DNA from: Natrinema ejinorense
Lineage (GTDB): Archaea; Halobacteriota; Halobacteria; Halobacteriales; Natrialbaceae
Direction: 5' to 3'
Assembly (NCBI RefSeq): GCF_002494345.1
Contig: NZ_NXNI01000001.1
Location: forward strand, 3,658,001-3,722,000
Length of the DNA: 64,000 bases
Shown here: positions 46,415-53,234 of the stretch, piece after piece
Layout of the letters: each line of letters starts with the position of its first letter
Numbering within the stretch: position 1 is the first letter of the stretch
Position numbers and translations under genes: made by a program
Notes under the pieces: model-generated
Seen by the model: only the letters and a program-made list of their open reading frames with translations
What the model was told of the DNA's origin: nothing
Databases searched by the model: none

Positions 46415-47380
46415 TCACCCGAGAATCCGTTTGCGTTCCGCCGGCGTGAGCTCGACGGGGCCGACGGCGACGGCGGTACAGTGTTCACACTCGAAGGCCC
46501 CGTCGCCGCTGTCGTAGGTGTGGATCGGTTTCCCGAGCAGGAAGAAGGCGTCGCGCTGCTTGCGCGTGATGACGGCGTCGGCGGTCTCACCGCAGTTGGG
46601 ACACCACTCTTTCCCCGAGGCCGGTTCCTGGTAGGTCACCTTGTGACGGCCGAACAGGTTCCCCTCGTATGCCTCCGCTTCGGTCTGCTCGACGAGCGCC
46701 TCCGGCGGGAGCGGATCCGACTCGAGGTCGTTGTCGTAGCCGCTCTCGGCACCCGTGGTCGCCGTGACGTACGGGCCGACGCTGACGCGGTTGTCGCGGC
46801 CGACGAAGTAGACCGTCACGTCGACGGCCTGCCCCTCGATGCGGACCTCGTTCCCCCAACCCGCGACGTAGAGGGTGAGGTCGTGTCGTGCGTCGGTCAC
46901 GGTCAGTTCGTTCTTCGCGCCCCTGATCGAGACGCCGTCGCGGGGATCGCGGACGTCTCGAGTCTGTCGCCACCCCGAGACCGAGACTCCGTAGTCCTCC
47001 GGCGATCGAGTGGGTGCGGCCGCGTCGTCGTAGAAGACCTGCTCGGCACCGATCGTCGAGAGCGTCTCGGCCGCCCCGTGTTCGACGAAGACGTCTTCGG
47101 CCCCGGTGACGTGAACGTCGCCGTCGACGCCGTCGACGTAGCCGTCGTCGAGATCGCCGGTCAACACCGTCCGCGCGTCGTCCGAATCGGCGGGTTCGTC
47201 ACCGGCCGGGACGTCCGTGAAGACGTACTCCGGATCGTGGATCGTGAGCCGCCCCGAGACGCTCTCGGCGCTCACGTAGACGTCTTCGGCACCGCGGAGT
47301 TCGACGGGTGCGGTCTCGCCCTCACCGACGCGTACGTCGCCCGAGAGCTCCCGCCGCACCGCGTTCTCGTTTCCGGTCAT
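46415..47380 (-). CDS. Beta-repeat protein with C-terminal zinc ribbon, unknown function
   Basis: A 321-aa protein whose first 215 residues are a run of short beta repeats with Val/Tyr every other residue and Asp/Gly turns (DVYVSAESVSGRLTIHD, GDVHVTGAEDVFVEHG, NELTVTDARHDLTLYVAGWG, NEVRIEGQAVDVTVYFVG), suggesting a right-handed beta-solenoid. The C-terminal 70 residues contain a zinc ribbon: WCPNCGETADAVI and FECEHCTAVAV (two CxxC). No signal peptide, so cytoplasmic. Family not recognised beyond haloarchaeal conserved hypothetical. Confidence 0.75.
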   Translation of the reverse strand: MTGNENAVRRELSGDVRVGEGETAPVELRGAEDVYVSAESVSGRLTIHDPEYVFTDVPAGDEPADSDDARTVLTGDLDDGYVDGVDGDVHVTGAEDVFVEHGAAETLSTIGAEQVFYDDAAAPTRSPEDYGVSVSGWRQTRDVRDPRDGVSIRGAKNELTVTDARHDLTLYVAGWGNEVRIEGQAVDVTVYFVGRDNRVSVGPYVTATTGAESGYDNDLESDPLPPEALVEQTEAEAYEGNLFGRHKVTYQEPASGKEWCPNCGETADAVITRKQRDAFFLLGKPIHTYDSGDGAFECEHCTAVAVGPVELTPAERKRILG

Positions 47381-47488
47381 CCTACGCTCGAGCTACTCAG
47401 TCAGTTCACTTCAACGGTTCGGAGGGTGGATGAAGACGAGACACATAAAATCATAAAACGTTTTGTGGGAGAACGCTCACGGGAGCGT

Positions 47489-48286
47489 ATGAACCGACGG
47501 CGTCTCCTCCGCACGTCCGGACGCGGACTGGCGATCGCGGTTGGCGGACTCGCCGGCTGTCTGGGAAGTGACGACGAAACCCCACCGCCACGCGAAGCCG
47601 TGGTGTTCGACGACGTTTCGATCACGGACGGAGCGATGGAAATCGACCTCGTCTCGGAGCCGAAAGTCGAATCCCGAGACGGGACCGTCGACGCCGCGGC
47701 CGTCGGCTCGCTCGTCCCGGTCGGCACTGCTCGTGCAGGCTCGCGGTCGTCGAGTTCGCGCCCGAGCGGCTCGACCGGTCGTGGCAGTGGCGGTCACTCG
47801 TCGGCTCCCAAAGGCCGCCACGGCTGGGCCATCTACGGCGGGACTTCCGGGCACCACTGGCGCGACGACCACGAGGACGACATCCGGATGTATCGCGCAA
47901 GCGTCGCCGCCCTCGGCGTCGCCTACATGGGCTCGAACACGAAGTACCAGGCGATGTCCCCGGGCCCGGATCCGGCCGACTGGGAGAAGGAGTGGTCCGA
48001 TCCGGAGCCGGGAACGACGGTGGAAGCCGATCTGGCCGCCATCGCGTCGGAGCCCCGCTCCGAATCGACATCGAGTGTGGCGAACGAATCCGTGTCGACC
48101 ACGGCGAACGAATCGGCGTCGGATCCGGCCTCGAGCGCGAGGGAAGGGTGGTACCGCGTCGGCACGCGCCTCGAGTCCCCCGACGGCGATACCGACTTCG
48201 AGTGGCAAGCGGCGGACTTCAGACTCGAGCGGGCGAGCGATGGGCTGGCCGTCGACGAGGCCTGGCACGTTCGTCCCCGGGTGTAG
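47489..48286 (+). CDS. Tat-dependent lipoprotein heading the aminopropyltransferase/channel cluster
   Basis: The 265-aa protein has a Tat lipobox signal (NRRRLLRTSGRGLAIAVGG, then LAGC). The mature chain begins with beta-strand-rich sequence (VVFDDVSITDGAMEIDLVSE), then a Ser/Gly/His/Arg linker (about residues 85-125), a Tyr/Trp-rich segment (HGWAIYGGTSGHHWRDDHED, YRASVAALGVAYMGSNTKY) and a C-terminal strand region (GWYRVGTRLES, DFEWQAADFRLER). Stop lies 65 nt before the membrane aminopropyltransferase gene on the same strand. Function unknown; position suggests an extracytoplasmic partner of that system. Confidence 0.75.
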   Translation: MNRRRLLRTSGRGLAIAVGGLAGCLGSDDETPPPREAVVFDDVSITDGAMEIDLVSEPKVESRDGTVDAAAVGSLVPVGTARAGSRSSSSRPSGSTGRGSGGHSSAPKGRHGWAIYGGTSGHHWRDDHEDDIRMYRASVAALGVAYMGSNTKYQAMSPGPDPADWEKEWSDPEPGTTVEADLAAIASEPRSESTSSVANESVSTTANESASDPASSAREGWYRVGTRLESPDGDTDFEWQAADFRLERASDGLAVDEAWHVRPRV

Positions 48287-48351
48287 TCGCCGCGCTCGCG
48301 ACTCGAGTGCGATGAGAGTGCTGTGACGTTCGATCGAGGGGTGTTCAGTGT

Positions 48352-50193
48352 ATGGCCGAGGATGGAACGACTAACGGGACCGAGACGAGTGGGTCCGAGT
48401 CAACCGACGGTGCGGGGAGCGGTCGGTCCGATTCAGTCCAACCGGAGCCGTCGGCGCGAGCACGCGGACGACCCGAGGGGGGAGTGTCGTCCCGGCACTT
48501 CGTTACCGATCGGCGGGTGGCGCTGTCGGTGACGTTCGTCGTCGCCTTCTGTTCGATCGCCTACGAGCTCGTCTACTCGGAGTTGCTCACGGTGTTTTTC
48601 GGCGGAACCGTCCTGCGGTACTCGATCACGATCGGGCTCTACATGTTTTCGCTGGGGATCGGATCGGTCCTCTCGGCACAACTCGGTGAGCCCGAATCGA
48701 ACTTCTTCCGGACCGAGGTCTACCTCGCGATCGCGGGACCGGCGGGGGCGCTGGCGATCGTCGCGATCAACTCGCTGCCCCCGATCGACGTTCCCGGCGC
48801 GGGACCGACGATCCTCGTACTCTCGCACGTTCCGATCCTCGTCGTGGGCGTGCTTTCGGGGTTCGAGGTGCCGCTGTTGACCGATCTCGTCGAGAACCGC
48901 GAGGAGACGGTCTTCGCGTCGCTCGGGCGGCTCTACCCGCGACGGATCGTCCGCGGGATCCTCGGCGCGTTCTTTACGATCGACGAACCCGACGACCGGT
49001 CCTTCTCCGAGGTCCTCGGTGTCGACTACCTCGGGAGCCTCGCTGGCACGGTCGTCTACGCGCTGGTGTTGTACCCTCGATACGGACTCGTCGTGAGCGT
49101 CTTCGCGCTTGGTCTGTTGAACGCACTCGCCGCGCTGGGCTTTGCCGCCTGGACGTTCTCGAATGCGGCCCGCACGCTCTCGCGACCGACCGTCGGACAG
49201 TGGCGCGCCGTCGTCCTCGTCGGCGTCCTCCTGACCGGCACCTATGGGGGGCTCGTCGCGCATCCGAACGCGGTCGACCGGGCGGTGACGACGACCTACC
49301 TCGAGCGGACCATCGAGCGGGAGTACCCCCCGGGCGTGTCAGACGTCGAGACGCGCAGCTACGACACAACGCCCTACCAGACGGTGCTCACCTACGAACG
49401 CGACGTTCAGGGGCATACCGGCACGGAGACGTGCCTCCACCTCGATCGGGCGATCCAGTTCTGTGATCGCTGGGTCGACTCCTATCACAGCGGGCTCGTC
49501 GACATCCCGATGACGACGTTCGACGACCCGTCCTCGGTCGACGTATTGCTCATCGGCGGCGGCGACTACATCGCCGTCGATCACCTCCGCCAGTACGACG
49601 TGTCGGTCGATCAGGTCGACATCGACGGCGAGTTCCTCGAGATGGCCCGGGAGCGGGAGTTCTTCCGGCAGTACAACGACGACGCCTACGAGTACGACCG
49701 CTTGAACACGACGACTCAGGACGCCTTCACGTACCTCCAGGAGAGCGACGAGACGTACGACCTCGTCCTCCTCGACGTGCCGGGTGTCCGAAGTGACGAG
49801 ACGATGTCGCTGTACTCGACGGAGTTTTACACGCTGCTCCGCGAGCACCTCAGCGACGACGGCCTCGTCGTCTCCTGGGTCTACACGAGCGGCGACCACC
49901 CGACCCACAGCAAGGTCTACGCCAACACGGTTCGAGCGGCGGGCTTCGACCAGTATCTCCCCTACTACGTCTACGACGACCTCGACGGCGACGGGGGGCT
50001 CGAGCCCGGCGAGCGCTTCTACGTGCTTTCGGACGGTCCGACGCCGACGCCCGACCTCGAGCGCGCCGAGAGCGACTACGTCCACGCAAACGCCGAGACG
50101 TTCGGGGAGTGGCAGTGGCGATCGCTTCCCGAGTACCGGGGCGTCGAACCGAACAGCGTCTTGCACCCGAACTACGACATCATCGTCGACTGA
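48352..50193 (+). CDS. Membrane-anchored spermidine-synthase-like aminopropyltransferase
   Basis: The 613-aa protein has an acidic N-terminal tail, seven or so TM segments (about residues 52-310, for example LSVTFVVAFCSIAYELVYSE, LSLGIGS-like and YGLVVSVFALGLLNALAALG) and a soluble spermidine-synthase domain (about 340-613). The latter shows PYQTVLTYERD, the decarboxylated-SAM site DVLLIGGGDYIAVDHL (about 398-412), an acidic VDIDGEFLEMA, and LVLLDVPGVRS in place of the catalytic Asp loop. It may make a polyamine or a related aminopropyl product at the membrane; substrate unproven. The next gene starts 2 nt after its stop. Confidence 0.87.
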   Translation: MAEDGTTNGTETSGSESTDGAGSGRSDSVQPEPSARARGRPEGGVSSRHFVTDRRVALSVTFVVAFCSIAYELVYSELLTVFFGGTVLRYSITIGLYMFSLGIGSVLSAQLGEPESNFFRTEVYLAIAGPAGALAIVAINSLPPIDVPGAGPTILVLSHVPILVVGVLSGFEVPLLTDLVENREETVFASLGRLYPRRIVRGILGAFFTIDEPDDRSFSEVLGVDYLGSLAGTVVYALVLYPRYGLVVSVFALGLLNALAALGFAAWTFSNAARTLSRPTVGQWRAVVLVGVLLTGTYGGLVAHPNAVDRAVTTTYLERTIEREYPPGVSDVETRSYDTTPYQTVLTYERDVQGHTGTETCLHLDRAIQFCDRWVDSYHSGLVDIPMTTFDDPSSVDVLLIGGGDYIAVDHLRQYDVSVDQVDIDGEFLEMAREREFFRQYNDDAYEYDRLNTTTQDAFTYLQESDETYDLVLLDVPGVRSDETMSLYSTEFYTLLREHLSDDGLVVSWVYTSGDHPTHSKVYANTVRAAGFDQYLPYYVYDDLDGDGGLEPGERFYVLSDGPTPTPDLERAESDYVHANAETFGEWQWRSLPEYRGVEPNSVLHPNYDIIVD

Positions 50194-50195
50194 TC

Positions 50196-50780
50196 ATGCC
50201 CAGAGAAACCCTCCAGTTCGTGCACGCCGACCGCCCGCCGGCGACCGACGACGTTCGCGTCTTCGACTCGCTGACGCGACGGTTCCTGGGAACCGAGTTT
50301 ACCTTCCGAATCATCGGGAGCTCACACTACGTCAGCGCCCCGGAGTACGGATTCTACGAGCTCTCGACCTGTGAGTCGGTCTCGACAGCGGATCGCGGGG
50401 CGACGACGGTTCCGCTCGAGCCCGACCGGTCGTCGCGGCGGCTCACCTTCGAGAACGACGCGATACAGTGCGTGACGGAGATCGAACACCGGCCGCTGTC
50501 GGCGTTTCCCCGCACCCGGTATCGCTCTCGTCCCCGATCGTTCGATCTCGCGTACGCCTTCGACGGACCCCCGGAGGCCGTCACGACGATCGAGATCGAC
50601 GCGAACGGCTACGAGACCTATCATACCTATCCCGAATACGACCTCGCGTTGTACACCCGAACGGTCTTCGCGACGGAACGAGACTCGTCGGCGCTCGACT
50701 CCGCCGCTCCCCGCCCGACGTCGGCGGGCGACCTGAACGACACCCACCCATCGATGAGTGACATTCACACGGATGACTAA
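50196..50780 (+). CDS. DUF2617-like protein
   Basis: The 194-aa cytoplasmic protein resembles the DUF2617 family: ETLQFVHADRPPATDDVRVF, RFLGTEFTFRIIGSSHYVS, and IDANGYETYHTYPEYDLAL. It is encoded 2 nt after the aminopropyltransferase and its last 8 nt overlap the channel gene (ATGACTAA). In bacteria I recall DUF2617 genes next to spermidine synthases and ion channels, so co-function is plausible. No catalytic motif is evident. Start ATG 50196 is favoured over an upstream in-frame start inside the preceding gene. Confidence 0.78.
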   Translation: MPRETLQFVHADRPPATDDVRVFDSLTRRFLGTEFTFRIIGSSHYVSAPEYGFYELSTCESVSTADRGATTVPLEPDRSSRRLTFENDAIQCVTEIEHRPLSAFPRTRYRSRPRSFDLAYAFDGPPEAVTTIEIDANGYETYHTYPEYDLALYTRTVFATERDSSALDSAAPRPTSAGDLNDTHPSMSDIHTDD

Positions 50781-52953
50781 TGAATCAGAATCGAACGACG
50801 GAACGGGGACCGACGGCGAACGTCCCGTCGCCAGCGCTGGCAGCGACCCGCTAACGGAGTCGGATTCGCGTCTCGCGGCAGAGACGTCCGTGGACGTCGA
50901 CCCCTCGATATTGCACCTCTCGCCCGCCCAGCGGGAGGCTCGAGGGATCTCCGACGACGAGGTTCGTGAGAAGTTTCGCTCGGTCCTCGTCTACGGGACC
51001 GACGCCCAGAAAGAGCTCGGTGACGTCACGCTGCCCGAGATCTCGTTGGATCGGACGACCCTGACGAGCGTCGACCGGCACCCGATCGATCTCAGCGGCG
51101 CGACCATCGAGGGGCTCTCCCTCGAGCACACGCGGGTGACGCTGCCGATCGTCCTCGACGGGGCGACGATCGGATCGCTTCGCCTGCAAGAGGCCCACCT
51201 CGAGGCGCCGCTGTCGTGTTCGGACGCGACGATTACCGGTCCCGCGAGTTGCTTCGAGGCGAAGTTCGACGACGACGTCGCCTTCGACGGGACGACCTTC
51301 GAGGGGCCCCTCGACTGCGACGAGGCGACCTTCCGCGACGACGTCCGGTTCGACGGCGCGACGTTCGACGAGGAGGTGACCTTCCGCGCGGCCGAGTGTC
51401 ACGGCGACTCGAATCACCTCGAGGACAACACGACGTTTTCGGGGGCGACGTTCCGTGCGAGCGCGACCTTCCGGGAGACCGAGTTCGGCTTCACGCGGTT
51501 CGATGCCGTCGACTTCCGGGCGGAGGCGGTCTTCCAGGAGGCGACGTTCACCGGCGACGCCGAGTTTCGGGAGACCGCTTTCGGCGCGCTCGCGGACTTC
51601 GACGAGGTCCGGTTCGGGGGCGACACCGCCTTCGACGACGTCGCGTTCCACGGCCGAGCGGACTTCCGCGGGGCGACGTTTTCCGGCGGCGCTCGCGCGC
51701 TGGTCGACGACGCCAGTTTTGCGAACGCGACCTTCGGCGACGACGTTACGTACCGCCACGCGTCGTTTCGGTTCGTCACGTTCGCGGGGGCCGATTTCGA
51801 GGGGATCGCGCACTTCGAGTCGGCGGCGTTCGACGGCGACGCGGACTTCCCCGACGCGTCGTTCGACGGCGAGGTCGACTTCGACGAAGCCCGGTTCCGG
51901 GAGGACGCCGACTTCTCGAACGCTCGGTTCGACGGCCCCTGCGTGTTTCGCGGCTGCGAGTTCACCGGCGGCGCGAATCACCTCAAGGACGACGTCTCCT
52001 TCGAGGATGCCCGATTCGCCGACGACGTCGACTTCCACGACGCCGAGATCACGTCCGCGAACTTCGTCGGGACCGCGTTCGGCGGGACGATCGACTTCAG
52101 CCGCTGTGTCGTCTCCGAACGGATCGACTTCGAGGCACACGGAACCGACGCCGACGCGTTCGTCGACTTCACTCGCGGCAAGATCCGCAGCGGCCGAATC
52201 GTCCAGCCCGCCGAGGGCTGGGTGCGATACGACCTGACGCTCGCGAGCGTCGGGGACGTCGATCTCGAGGCCGAGCGAACGCGGGACCGCCGCCAACTCC
52301 TCGATTACTTCCGGTTCTGCCGGACGGAGTTCGACGAGTTCGACGGACACACGTTCGACTTCAGCGGCCACCGCGAGTACCTCGACCGAAACAGCTGGTC
52401 CATCCACGACTTCGACGAGCCGCCAGCGGACGCGGTCGACCGGGAGTACGCCCTCGCGATGACGCCGGAAGTGATCGAAACGACGTATCTCAAAGCCAAA
52501 CAGAGCGCGAGCGCGAACGGCGACATGAAAACCGCCGGCGAGTTCCGCGTCAAACGGCAGCGCTACAGCCGTCGGAAGAACCTCGAGACCGTCCGCGATT
52601 CCGAGGAGGGAATTTGGACCCGGACCAAGAACCTCGGGCGGGCCGCGGAGAACTTCTTCCTCGGGGTCACCTGCGGGCACGGCATGCGACCGATGCGGAT
52701 CGGCATCATGTTCGCCATCGCGCCGATGGCGTTCGCGATCCCCTACCTGTTCGACGGGCCGCTGTTCGAAACGGGAGCGGAGGGCGTCTACGAAACCATC
52801 TACTTCAGCTACATCAGCTACACGACGATCGGCTACGGCGACATCGGGCCGATCGGTCCGGTCGCCCGGTTTCTCGCCGGCTCCGAAGCCTACCTCAGTA
52901 CGATCCTCGCGGCCCTGCTCGTCTACGCGCTGGTCAAACGATCCGAACTCTGA
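50773..52953 (+). CDS. Pentapeptide-repeat protein with C-terminal two-TM potassium-channel pore
   Basis: The 726-aa protein is a fusion. After a disordered N-terminus, about residues 115-465 are pentapeptide-type repeats (A[D/N]LXX-like FDGATF, ATFRDDVRF, ADFSNARF), forming a right-handed quadrilateral beta-helix. A helical linker follows, then a minimal channel: TM1 near residue 642 (GIMFAIAPMAFAIPYLF), pore motif TTIGYGDIGP (683-692) with the K+ filter TxGYG variant TIGYGD, and TM2 ending VYALVKRS. The large cytoplasmic solenoid may sense a ligand and gate the pore. It is the last gene of the aminopropyltransferase/DUF2617 cluster. Function inferred. Confidence 0.85.
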   Translation: MTNESESNDGTGTDGERPVASAGSDPLTESDSRLAAETSVDVDPSILHLSPAQREARGISDDEVREKFRSVLVYGTDAQKELGDVTLPEISLDRTTLTSVDRHPIDLSGATIEGLSLEHTRVTLPIVLDGATIGSLRLQEAHLEAPLSCSDATITGPASCFEAKFDDDVAFDGTTFEGPLDCDEATFRDDVRFDGATFDEEVTFRAAECHGDSNHLEDNTTFSGATFRASATFRETEFGFTRFDAVDFRAEAVFQEATFTGDAEFRETAFGALADFDEVRFGGDTAFDDVAFHGRADFRGATFSGGARALVDDASFANATFGDDVTYRHASFRFVTFAGADFEGIAHFESAAFDGDADFPDASFDGEVDFDEARFREDADFSNARFDGPCVFRGCEFTGGANHLKDDVSFEDARFADDVDFHDAEITSANFVGTAFGGTIDFSRCVVSERIDFEAHGTDADAFVDFTRGKIRSGRIVQPAEGWVRYDLTLASVGDVDLEAERTRDRRQLLDYFRFCRTEFDEFDGHTFDFSGHREYLDRNSWSIHDFDEPPADAVDREYALAMTPEVIETTYLKAKQSASANGDMKTAGEFRVKRQRYSRRKNLETVRDSEEGIWTRTKNLGRAAENFFLGVTCGHGMRPMRIGIMFAIAPMAFAIPYLFDGPLFETGAEGVYETIYFSYISYTTIGYGDIGPIGPVARFLAGSEAYLSTILAALLVYALVKRSEL

Positions 52954-53012: not shown

Positions 53013-53234
53013 ATGAGTTCCGACGCAGACGTCGACCCCTCCGACTACGAGGGGCTCGAGGACGCGGACGTGACCATGCGAGTCAACGATCACGGCCTCC
53101 ACATCGCCGACGACGAGGAAACCGGCGTCTCGAGCCAGGGACAGACGCCCGAAGATGCCCTCGAAAACCTCGCGGCGGCCGTCCGGTCGTATCGGGAAGC
53201 GACGGCCGACGATACCGGAGACGACTGGCTTTAG
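53013..53234 (+). CDS. HicB-like antitoxin-family protein, orphan
   Basis: The 73-aa acidic protein resembles the HicB/UPF0150 fold: DVTMRVNDHGLHIADDEETG strands and SQGQTPEDALENLAAAVRSY, the helix that follows the DTPEEA-type turn. HicB normally neutralises a HicA mRNA interferase; no HicA gene lies in either flank, so this is probably a solitary regulator. A TATA-like GTATTTTAC at 52981-52989 precedes the start by about 28 nt. Confidence 0.75.
   Translation: MSSDADVDPSDYEGLEDADVTMRVNDHGLHIADDEETGVSSQGQTPEDALENLAAAVRSYREATADDTGDDWL

Follow-up and report, generated by a model that had tools for sequence, protein, structure and literature searches.

Halophiles have been reported to lack an S-adenosylmethionine (AdoMet) decarboxylase (AdoMetDC), and for haloarchaea, which carry homologues of the seven-transmembrane (7TM) type of SpeE, the source of decarboxylated AdoMet (dcAdoMet) was left open (PMC5178350). 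What, then, could supply such a protein? The question is raised by a locus of Natrinema ejinorense (assembly GCF_002494345.1, contig NZ_NXNI01000001.1) within a stretch of 64,000 nucleotides, positions 3,658,001 to 3,722,000 of the forward strand, which is termed the window and whose numbering is used below. Here, a gene for a SpeE-like membrane protein (B) is directly followed by a DUF2617 gene (C) whose product is predicted to adopt an AdoMetDC fold, and both belong to a conserved set of five genes:

47489-48286, plus strand: A, a putative Tat-type lipoprotein of 265 aa with the start MNRRRLL...LAGC
48352-50193, plus strand: B, 613 aa, a seven-TM part fused to a SpeE-like domain (spermidine synthase superfamily)
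50196-50780, plus strand: C, 194 aa, DUF2617, a predicted two-repeat pyruvoyl-type AdoMetDC
50773-52953, plus strand: D, 726 aa, a pentapeptide-repeat solenoid fused to a two-TM K+ channel pore
46415-47380, minus strand: U, 321 aa, a beta-solenoid (DUF3060-like repeats) with a C-terminal four-Cys zinc ribbon, divergent from A here
47381-47488, no strand assigned: the U/A intergenic region of 108 nt, AT-rich around 47440-47465, a likely divergent promoter

The coordinates and Pfam matches agree with a preliminary description of this DNA, which had listed A to D with their domains as four same-strand genes, spaced by 65 nt (A-B) and 2 nt (B-C) and with an 8-nt overlap of C and D. On inspection, the A-B gap (48287-48351) is GC-rich, with no AT-rich stretch like that between U and A. 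Close homologues of B were found in 42 genomes of a set of 292 haloarchaeal genomes, and 40 B-positive loci were retrieved, in which the window genes were located. To count recurrence, all open reading frames (ORFs) of 29 diverse haloarchaeal loci were clustered without using the annotation of the window. Exactly five families recurred, namely A, B, C and U in 29/29 loci each and D in 27/29; the clustering yielded no sixth family in at least four of the 29 loci, and the flanking genes were non-recurrent. The preliminary description had regarded its four genes as one unit and had named missing co-occurrence in other genomes as the refuting outcome; these counts bear the unit out and enlarge it, as A, B, C and D together with the divergent U form one conserved five-gene unit. 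The adjacency A-B-C is kept in every evaluable B-positive haloarchaeal locus. Four gene orders occur, which are U divergent from A-B-C-D as in the window, A-B-C-U-D, A-B-C-D-U, and a form in which A-B-C faces U and D. In most other genomes, U is either flanked by C and D or placed behind D, and it mostly shares their strand. The module is present on chromosomes and megaplasmids and spans several haloarchaeal families. Since the content is kept while order and flanks vary, the five genes are considered to be functionally coupled.

The identity of C is central to the interpretation of this unit. C matches DUF2617 (PF10936, 7.4e-8), and its AlphaFold2 (AF2) model has a predicted local distance difference test (pLDDT) value of 87.7. 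In a comparison of this model with the PDB using VIA-align, the top five rows are all eukaryotic AdoMetDC, a double beta-sandwich of two AdoMetDC repeats: human 1jl0 (Z 8.7, 146 residues, 3.8 A) is followed by 1msv (Z 8.5) and three T. brucei AdoMetDC entries (Z 6.7, 6.6 and 6.5), and the best unrelated row reaches 4.8. The SpeD protein of T. maritima aligns singly, 1tmi to the N-half of C (Z 3.6) and 1vr7 to the C-half (Z 4.3). At the sequence level, a search of the C profile against all PDB sequences at E<=10 returned Aquifex AdoMetDC 2iii as its sole match (E 0.46), with an alignment that covers the catalytic HTWPE. PF02675 was matched by one of 28 C proteins (E 0.058), below the Pfam cut-off. 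Profile alignment with hhalign against 31 SpeD sequences gave a probability of 74.8 (E 2.6e-5, score 36.2), compared with a maximum of 18.9 for 200 column-shuffled SpeD profiles, 14.5 for a reversed profile and at most 14.4 for unrelated families; the C-half alone reached a probability of 84.7. An internal repeat between the N-half and C-half of C was not detected by hhalign, and a search of the N. ejinorense genome with PF01536 found nothing, with no match in the controls either. Taken together, model and profiles make it very likely that DUF2617 has the two-repeat AdoMetDC fold. The residues from which an activity can be predicted are as follows:

50322-50324, plus strand: codon of Ser43 of C, the predicted pyruvoyl-forming Ser (S-H motif), which opens strand 4 (residues 43-48); 28/28 sequences
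50370-50372, plus strand: codon of Cys59 of C, the predicted proton-donor Cys at the end of the fifth strand; 28/28 sequences
50622-50636, plus strand: H143-T-Y-P-E147 of C, aligned to H-T-W-P-E of SpeD, with the predicted processing His and ribose-binding Glu; both in 28/28 sequences

In eukaryotic AdoMetDC, strand 4 holds the pyruvoyl Ser, which has the Cys near it, the processing His and the ribose-binding Glu are found in strand 12 of the C-half, and a sequence alignment to prokaryotic SpeD is possible for the C-half only (PMC1282579). Processing of the human enzyme requires Ser229 and His243 (PMC3975893), and S63, H68 and C83 of T. maritima SpeD are required for processing and catalysis (PMC10407285). 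In C, the residues S43, C59, T130, H143 and E147 are invariant (28/28) and, with equivalences taken from motif and strand order instead of superposition, S43 and C59 fall into the N-half and T130, H143 and E147 into the C-half, which is the split of the eukaryotic enzyme. Judged by this residue pattern and the model, DUF2617 is predicted, with some preference, to be an active AdoMet decarboxylase.

The partner of C is a protein in which PF01564 (Spermine_synth, E 4.5e-17) follows C-terminally on about seven hydrophobic segments. The profile of B matches solved spermidine synthases (best 6.6e-22), and profile comparison indicates homology to bacterial 7TM-SpeE (probability 99.9). In its N-terminal part (48352-49300), the seven hydrophobic segments are accompanied by positive charges in the even-numbered loops. 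Two motifs of the catalytic domain stand out:

49555-49566, plus strand: GGGD motif of B (residues 402-405), including the position of the dcAdoMet-amine-binding Asp; invariant in 31 sequences
49774-49785, plus strand: D475-x-P-G motif of B, with D475, P477 and G478 invariant in 31 sequences

The Asp of the GGGD motif of aminopropyltransferases selects the amine of dcAdoMet. B retains this motif, the D-x-D ribose motif, D457 and the catalytic D475. Of the features of a spermidine synthase proper, B has the SpeE domain, GGGD and the catalytic Asp; its D-x-P-G, however, aligns with the D-x-x-D of spermidine synthases in such a way that the catalytic Asp is kept and the second acceptor Asp is replaced by Gly. 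The second acceptor-binding Asp was found in 0/31 sequences and D-x-P-G in all of them, and B is therefore classed as a SpeE-superfamily protein and not as a spermidine synthase. Of the earlier pairing of a membrane spermidine-synthase-like enzyme with a K+-type pore, both domains stand, and an assignment of B as a spermidine synthase proper falls with the D-x-P-G motif. The same substitution points away from putrescine and towards an unusual acceptor, as had already been noted for halophilic SpeE homologues (PMC5178350). Glu72 and Glu77 in the first TM segment of B are invariant as well. The genome additionally carries a second SpeE-like gene (G000:C1:2682213-2682968, locus L002) that shares 33% identity with B and represents a type far more widespread in haloarchaea. 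This gene is probably of the HVO_0255 type, and disruption of HVO_0255 led to hypochlorite tolerance in Haloferax (PMC6267482).

If B is an aminopropyltransferase, it needs dcAdoMet, and C as an AdoMetDC would fit this need. PF02675 was matched neither in this genome nor in 290/292 haloarchaea, and all 21 PF10936 matches in the 292 genomes adjoin B. Among 14 control genomes, DUF2617 was matched in C. glutamicum and H. volcanii, both without a PF02675 match. A tblastn search of plasmids with bacterial DUF2617 returned haloarchaeal matches and chance Proteus matches only. In bacterial 7TM-SpeE operons, such as those of Novosphingobium (L081) and Alteromonas (L083), speD is present, and by analogy DUF2617 would occupy the speD slot in haloarchaea. 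A PF02675 SpeD occurs in only 2/292 haloarchaea (L117 and L118). On the Halobaculum rubrum plasmid (L117:8373-10154), a true speD lies near a canonical speE for a soluble enzyme; the pair resembles a spermidine pathway gained by horizontal transfer.

From these observations, the five genes are proposed to form a module for aminopropyl transfer at the membrane, with a probability of roughly 0.58. C would cleave itself before Ser43 and decarboxylate AdoMet to dcAdoMet, which B would use to place an aminopropyl group onto a non-standard acceptor, which may be an amine associated with the membrane or a small one, for instance agmatine. The lipoprotein A, on the outside, and the beta-solenoid/zinc-ribbon protein U would probably serve in sensing or as a scaffold, and the K+ channel D may be a frequent output partner that also acts independently, probably in envelope or osmotic stress. 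The analysis itself establishes which genes recur, how conserved they and their residues are, which fold is predicted for C and that a recognised AdoMetDC is lacking; the activities of C and B, the acceptor, the stress role and the coupling to D are inferred. In broader terms, DUF2617 would be an active two-repeat prokaryotic AdoMetDC, related to class 2, that supplies dcAdoMet in haloarchaea and in SpeE-bearing actinobacteria without SpeD and is dedicated to a membrane-associated acceptor, which appears somewhat more probable than otherwise.

Several results weigh against this interpretation. For the model of C, Foldseek alone gave no match at E<0.001, and the Z score of 8.7 obtained for this predicted model is modest. 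The N-half of C aligns weakly with SpeD (20.35), and one of 200 shuffles reached 20.49. A Pfam scan of nine single SpeD sequences gave no PF10936 match. At position 42, where strand 3 ends and a base-contacting Glu would be expected, 10 of 28 sequences have Glu, 3 have Asp and 13 have Ser, with Ser in the window. For B, the loop charges would predict an external catalytic domain, at odds with AdoMet being cytosolic. Finally, a Haloferax strain deleted for the B homologue HVO_B0357 showed no phenotype in any of the conditions tested (PMC5178350).

Some of these results are shared by the most probable alternative, in which C is a dead AdoMetDC relative that, like the trypanosome 'prozyme', binds AdoMet and regulates B, with B being an AdoMet-using methyl- or aminocarboxypropyltransferase. 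In its favour, the fold matches of C include AdoMetDC/prozyme structures of trypanosomes, a Glu is not conserved at position 42, the second acceptor Asp is missing from B, and haloarchaea are mostly without spermidine, with little or none reported (PMC5178350). However, the invariance of Ser43, Cys59, His143 and Glu147 in 28 sequences would be unneeded in a dead regulator. B also keeps the GGGD motif, whose Asp is generally known to select the dcAdoMet amine, and the bacterial counterparts have an ordinary speD, so that this explanation is regarded as possible and rather doubtful.

The preliminary description had favoured a locally made polyamine that controls the channel. D combines pentapeptide repeats (PF13576, 1.7e-46) with Ion_trans_2 (PF07885, 7.4e-8), and its filter is located as follows:

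52825-52839, plus strand: selectivity filter TIGYG of D (residues 685-689), with T-[IV]-G-Y-G invariant in 30/30 sequences

With the T-x-G-Y-G filter within a two-TM pore domain, D is predicted to be a K+ channel. Blocking or gating of its pore by a polyamine made by B is suggested by the linkage of D to the enzymes in 27/29 diverse loci and its presence in all 42 B-positive genomes, and by a pore that by profile is nearest to KirBac3.1/KCNT; Kir channels are polyamine-blocked. D homologues (E<1e-30) were, however, found in 61/292 genomes, so that about 19 B-negative haloarchaea have D without A, B, C and U, none of which was found nearby in the inspected D-only loci. A conserved pore-lining acid in M2, as sought for a polyamine-blocked inward rectifier, was not found: position 705, the sole acidic M2 site, is Glu in 16, Gln in 8 and Leu in 6 of 30 sequences. 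Given this variability, the channel is present, but nothing marks D as polyamine-gated. Pfam recognised no small-molecule-binding domain in D, only the pentapeptide repeats. Together with the lost acceptor Asp of B and the scarcity of spermidine in haloarchaea, these results count against the earlier idea, which is now considered unlikely. At locus L122, D lies outside the cluster, elsewhere in the genome. Many D homologues (for example L047:4883-7219 and L059:6157-8334) have an N-terminal Cys-x(n)-W-x-CPH-x(n)-C-x-FH, which resembles a small zinc site and is lost in the clade of the window. Several B-negative haloarchaea (G042, G027, G153, G133, G139 and others) contain D-like proteins in open frames of about 1160-1390 aa; these seem to combine the same channel region with a longer pentapeptide solenoid.

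Patchy distribution and carriage on megaplasmids as well as chromosomes might fit an anti-phage defence module; this is highly improbable, as the sole PADLOC match is a generic Rossmann-fold hit of B to mads_2 (2.5e-6), the five genes are without a recognised nuclease, NTPase or sensor, and the flanking genes do not recur. A chance neighbourhood of unrelated genes, each of a type found elsewhere in prokaryotes, is already refuted by the locus comparison, in which the five families stay together across several haloarchaeal families while orders differ and all flanks change.

The two remaining members of the module are A and U. A matched no Pfam family; its 31 homologues share an invariant G23-C24 lipobox, a near-invariant R3-R4 and a PPPR motif, and the twin-Arg start and the invariant G-C make A a plausible Tat-type lipoprotein. 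In U, C260, C263, C298 and C301 are invariant, and weak DUF3060 and zinc-ribbon matches were obtained. Its AF2 model (pLDDT 89.8) gave nothing below 0.001 in a Foldseek search, and the VIA matches are generic parallel beta-helices that cover residues 118-223 only (best Z 8.0, a phage tailspike). A relationship of U or A to bacterial DUF4178 proteins or lipoproteins was rejected, as no profile matched. At locus L046 (G124:C2), the best B match runs across an in-frame TGA and U is located 6.6 kb from A; this module may be decaying or interrupted. One neighbouring gene lies outside the module elsewhere:

53013-53234: a small DUF7387 protein of 73 aa, after D in Natrialba/Natrinema-type loci

The fifth gene U and the likeness of DUF2617 to AdoMetDC had been overlooked in the preliminary description. 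DUF2617 was treated only as a predicted beta-sandwich enzyme in the accessible portion of PMC11237479, and a full-text search of literature naming DUF2617, in what could be retrieved and with family databases outside the search, found no link to AdoMetDC. The assignment of DUF2617 to AdoMetDC therefore appears to be new. The accession CCP45394.1 carries a prefix that we take to be that of M. tuberculosis H37Rv. It denotes a DUF2617 protein in a SpeE operon (PMC11237479), and M. tuberculosis has been listed as being without a clear AdoMetDC (PMC1282579). An AdoMetDC fold of DUF2617 would answer the dcAdoMet gap in both haloarchaea and M. tuberculosis. In a survey from 2023, no fusion of SpeD turned up among extant archaea, and class 2 was described as an invention of eukaryotes (PMC10407285). 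If archaea and actinobacteria do have a two-repeat form, this would bear on that view. In addition, the assignment makes a widespread, unexplained membrane module open to experiment.

Compared with known enzymes, C shares with eukaryotic class 2 AdoMetDC (PF01536) the two fused repeats, with equivalents of Ser/Cys in the N-half and of Ser(Thr)/His/Glu in the C-half, and this class is its best fold match; the eukaryotic enzyme has about 330 residues versus about 170 ordered residues in C, with no significant direct sequence match. For class 1b SpeD (PF02675, e.g. T. maritima), F-P-A-x-T...HTYPE of C aligns to FxPxGxTG...HTWPE, and S63, H68 and C83 have their counterparts in S43, H143 and C59, whereas the catalytic residues are found in one repeat of a homodimer in SpeD and in two halves of one chain in C. 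The canonical soluble pair of the Halobaculum rubrum plasmid resembles the module in that the gene making dcAdoMet is close to the aminopropyltransferase gene; unlike B and C, its SpeE is a soluble protein in which GGGDGG and D-I-S-D-P are intact, and its SpeD belongs to PF02675. HVO_B0357, the 7TM SpeE homologue of Haloferax volcanii, has the GGGD(W/Y) motif (noted in PMC6267482), the short C-terminus and the 7TM N-terminus of B and is apparently its orthologue; its operon partners are not discussed in the accessible portions of PMC5178350 and PMC6267482. The closest systems are the PSP-associated polyamine operons of bacteria, which combine 7TM-SpeE, DUF350, a lipoprotein, DUF4178 and CesT/PspA (Ravi et al. 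2024, PMC11237479), with a variant that contains a DUF4247 lipoprotein and DUF2617 (PMC11237479). The bacterial link of SpeE-like proteins, DUF2617 and channels, which the preliminary description had mentioned, exists. Shared with the haloarchaeal module are 7TM-SpeE, the lipoprotein, DUF2617 (in the variant), a membrane channel-like partner and the tight operon, whereas DUF350, DUF4178, PspA, CesT, flotillin and speD are not among the haloarchaeal recurrent genes. Membership in the PSP operons was rejected, as no PspA, CesT, DUF350 or DUF4178 recurs in the 29 loci and the profiles of U, A and D match no bacterial DUF4178 or DUF350. The kind of operon is already known from bacteria, and the haloarchaeal form is a new variant of it, in which a pentapeptide K+ channel and a beta-solenoid/zinc-ribbon protein replace DUF350/DUF4178 and DUF2617 replaces speD.

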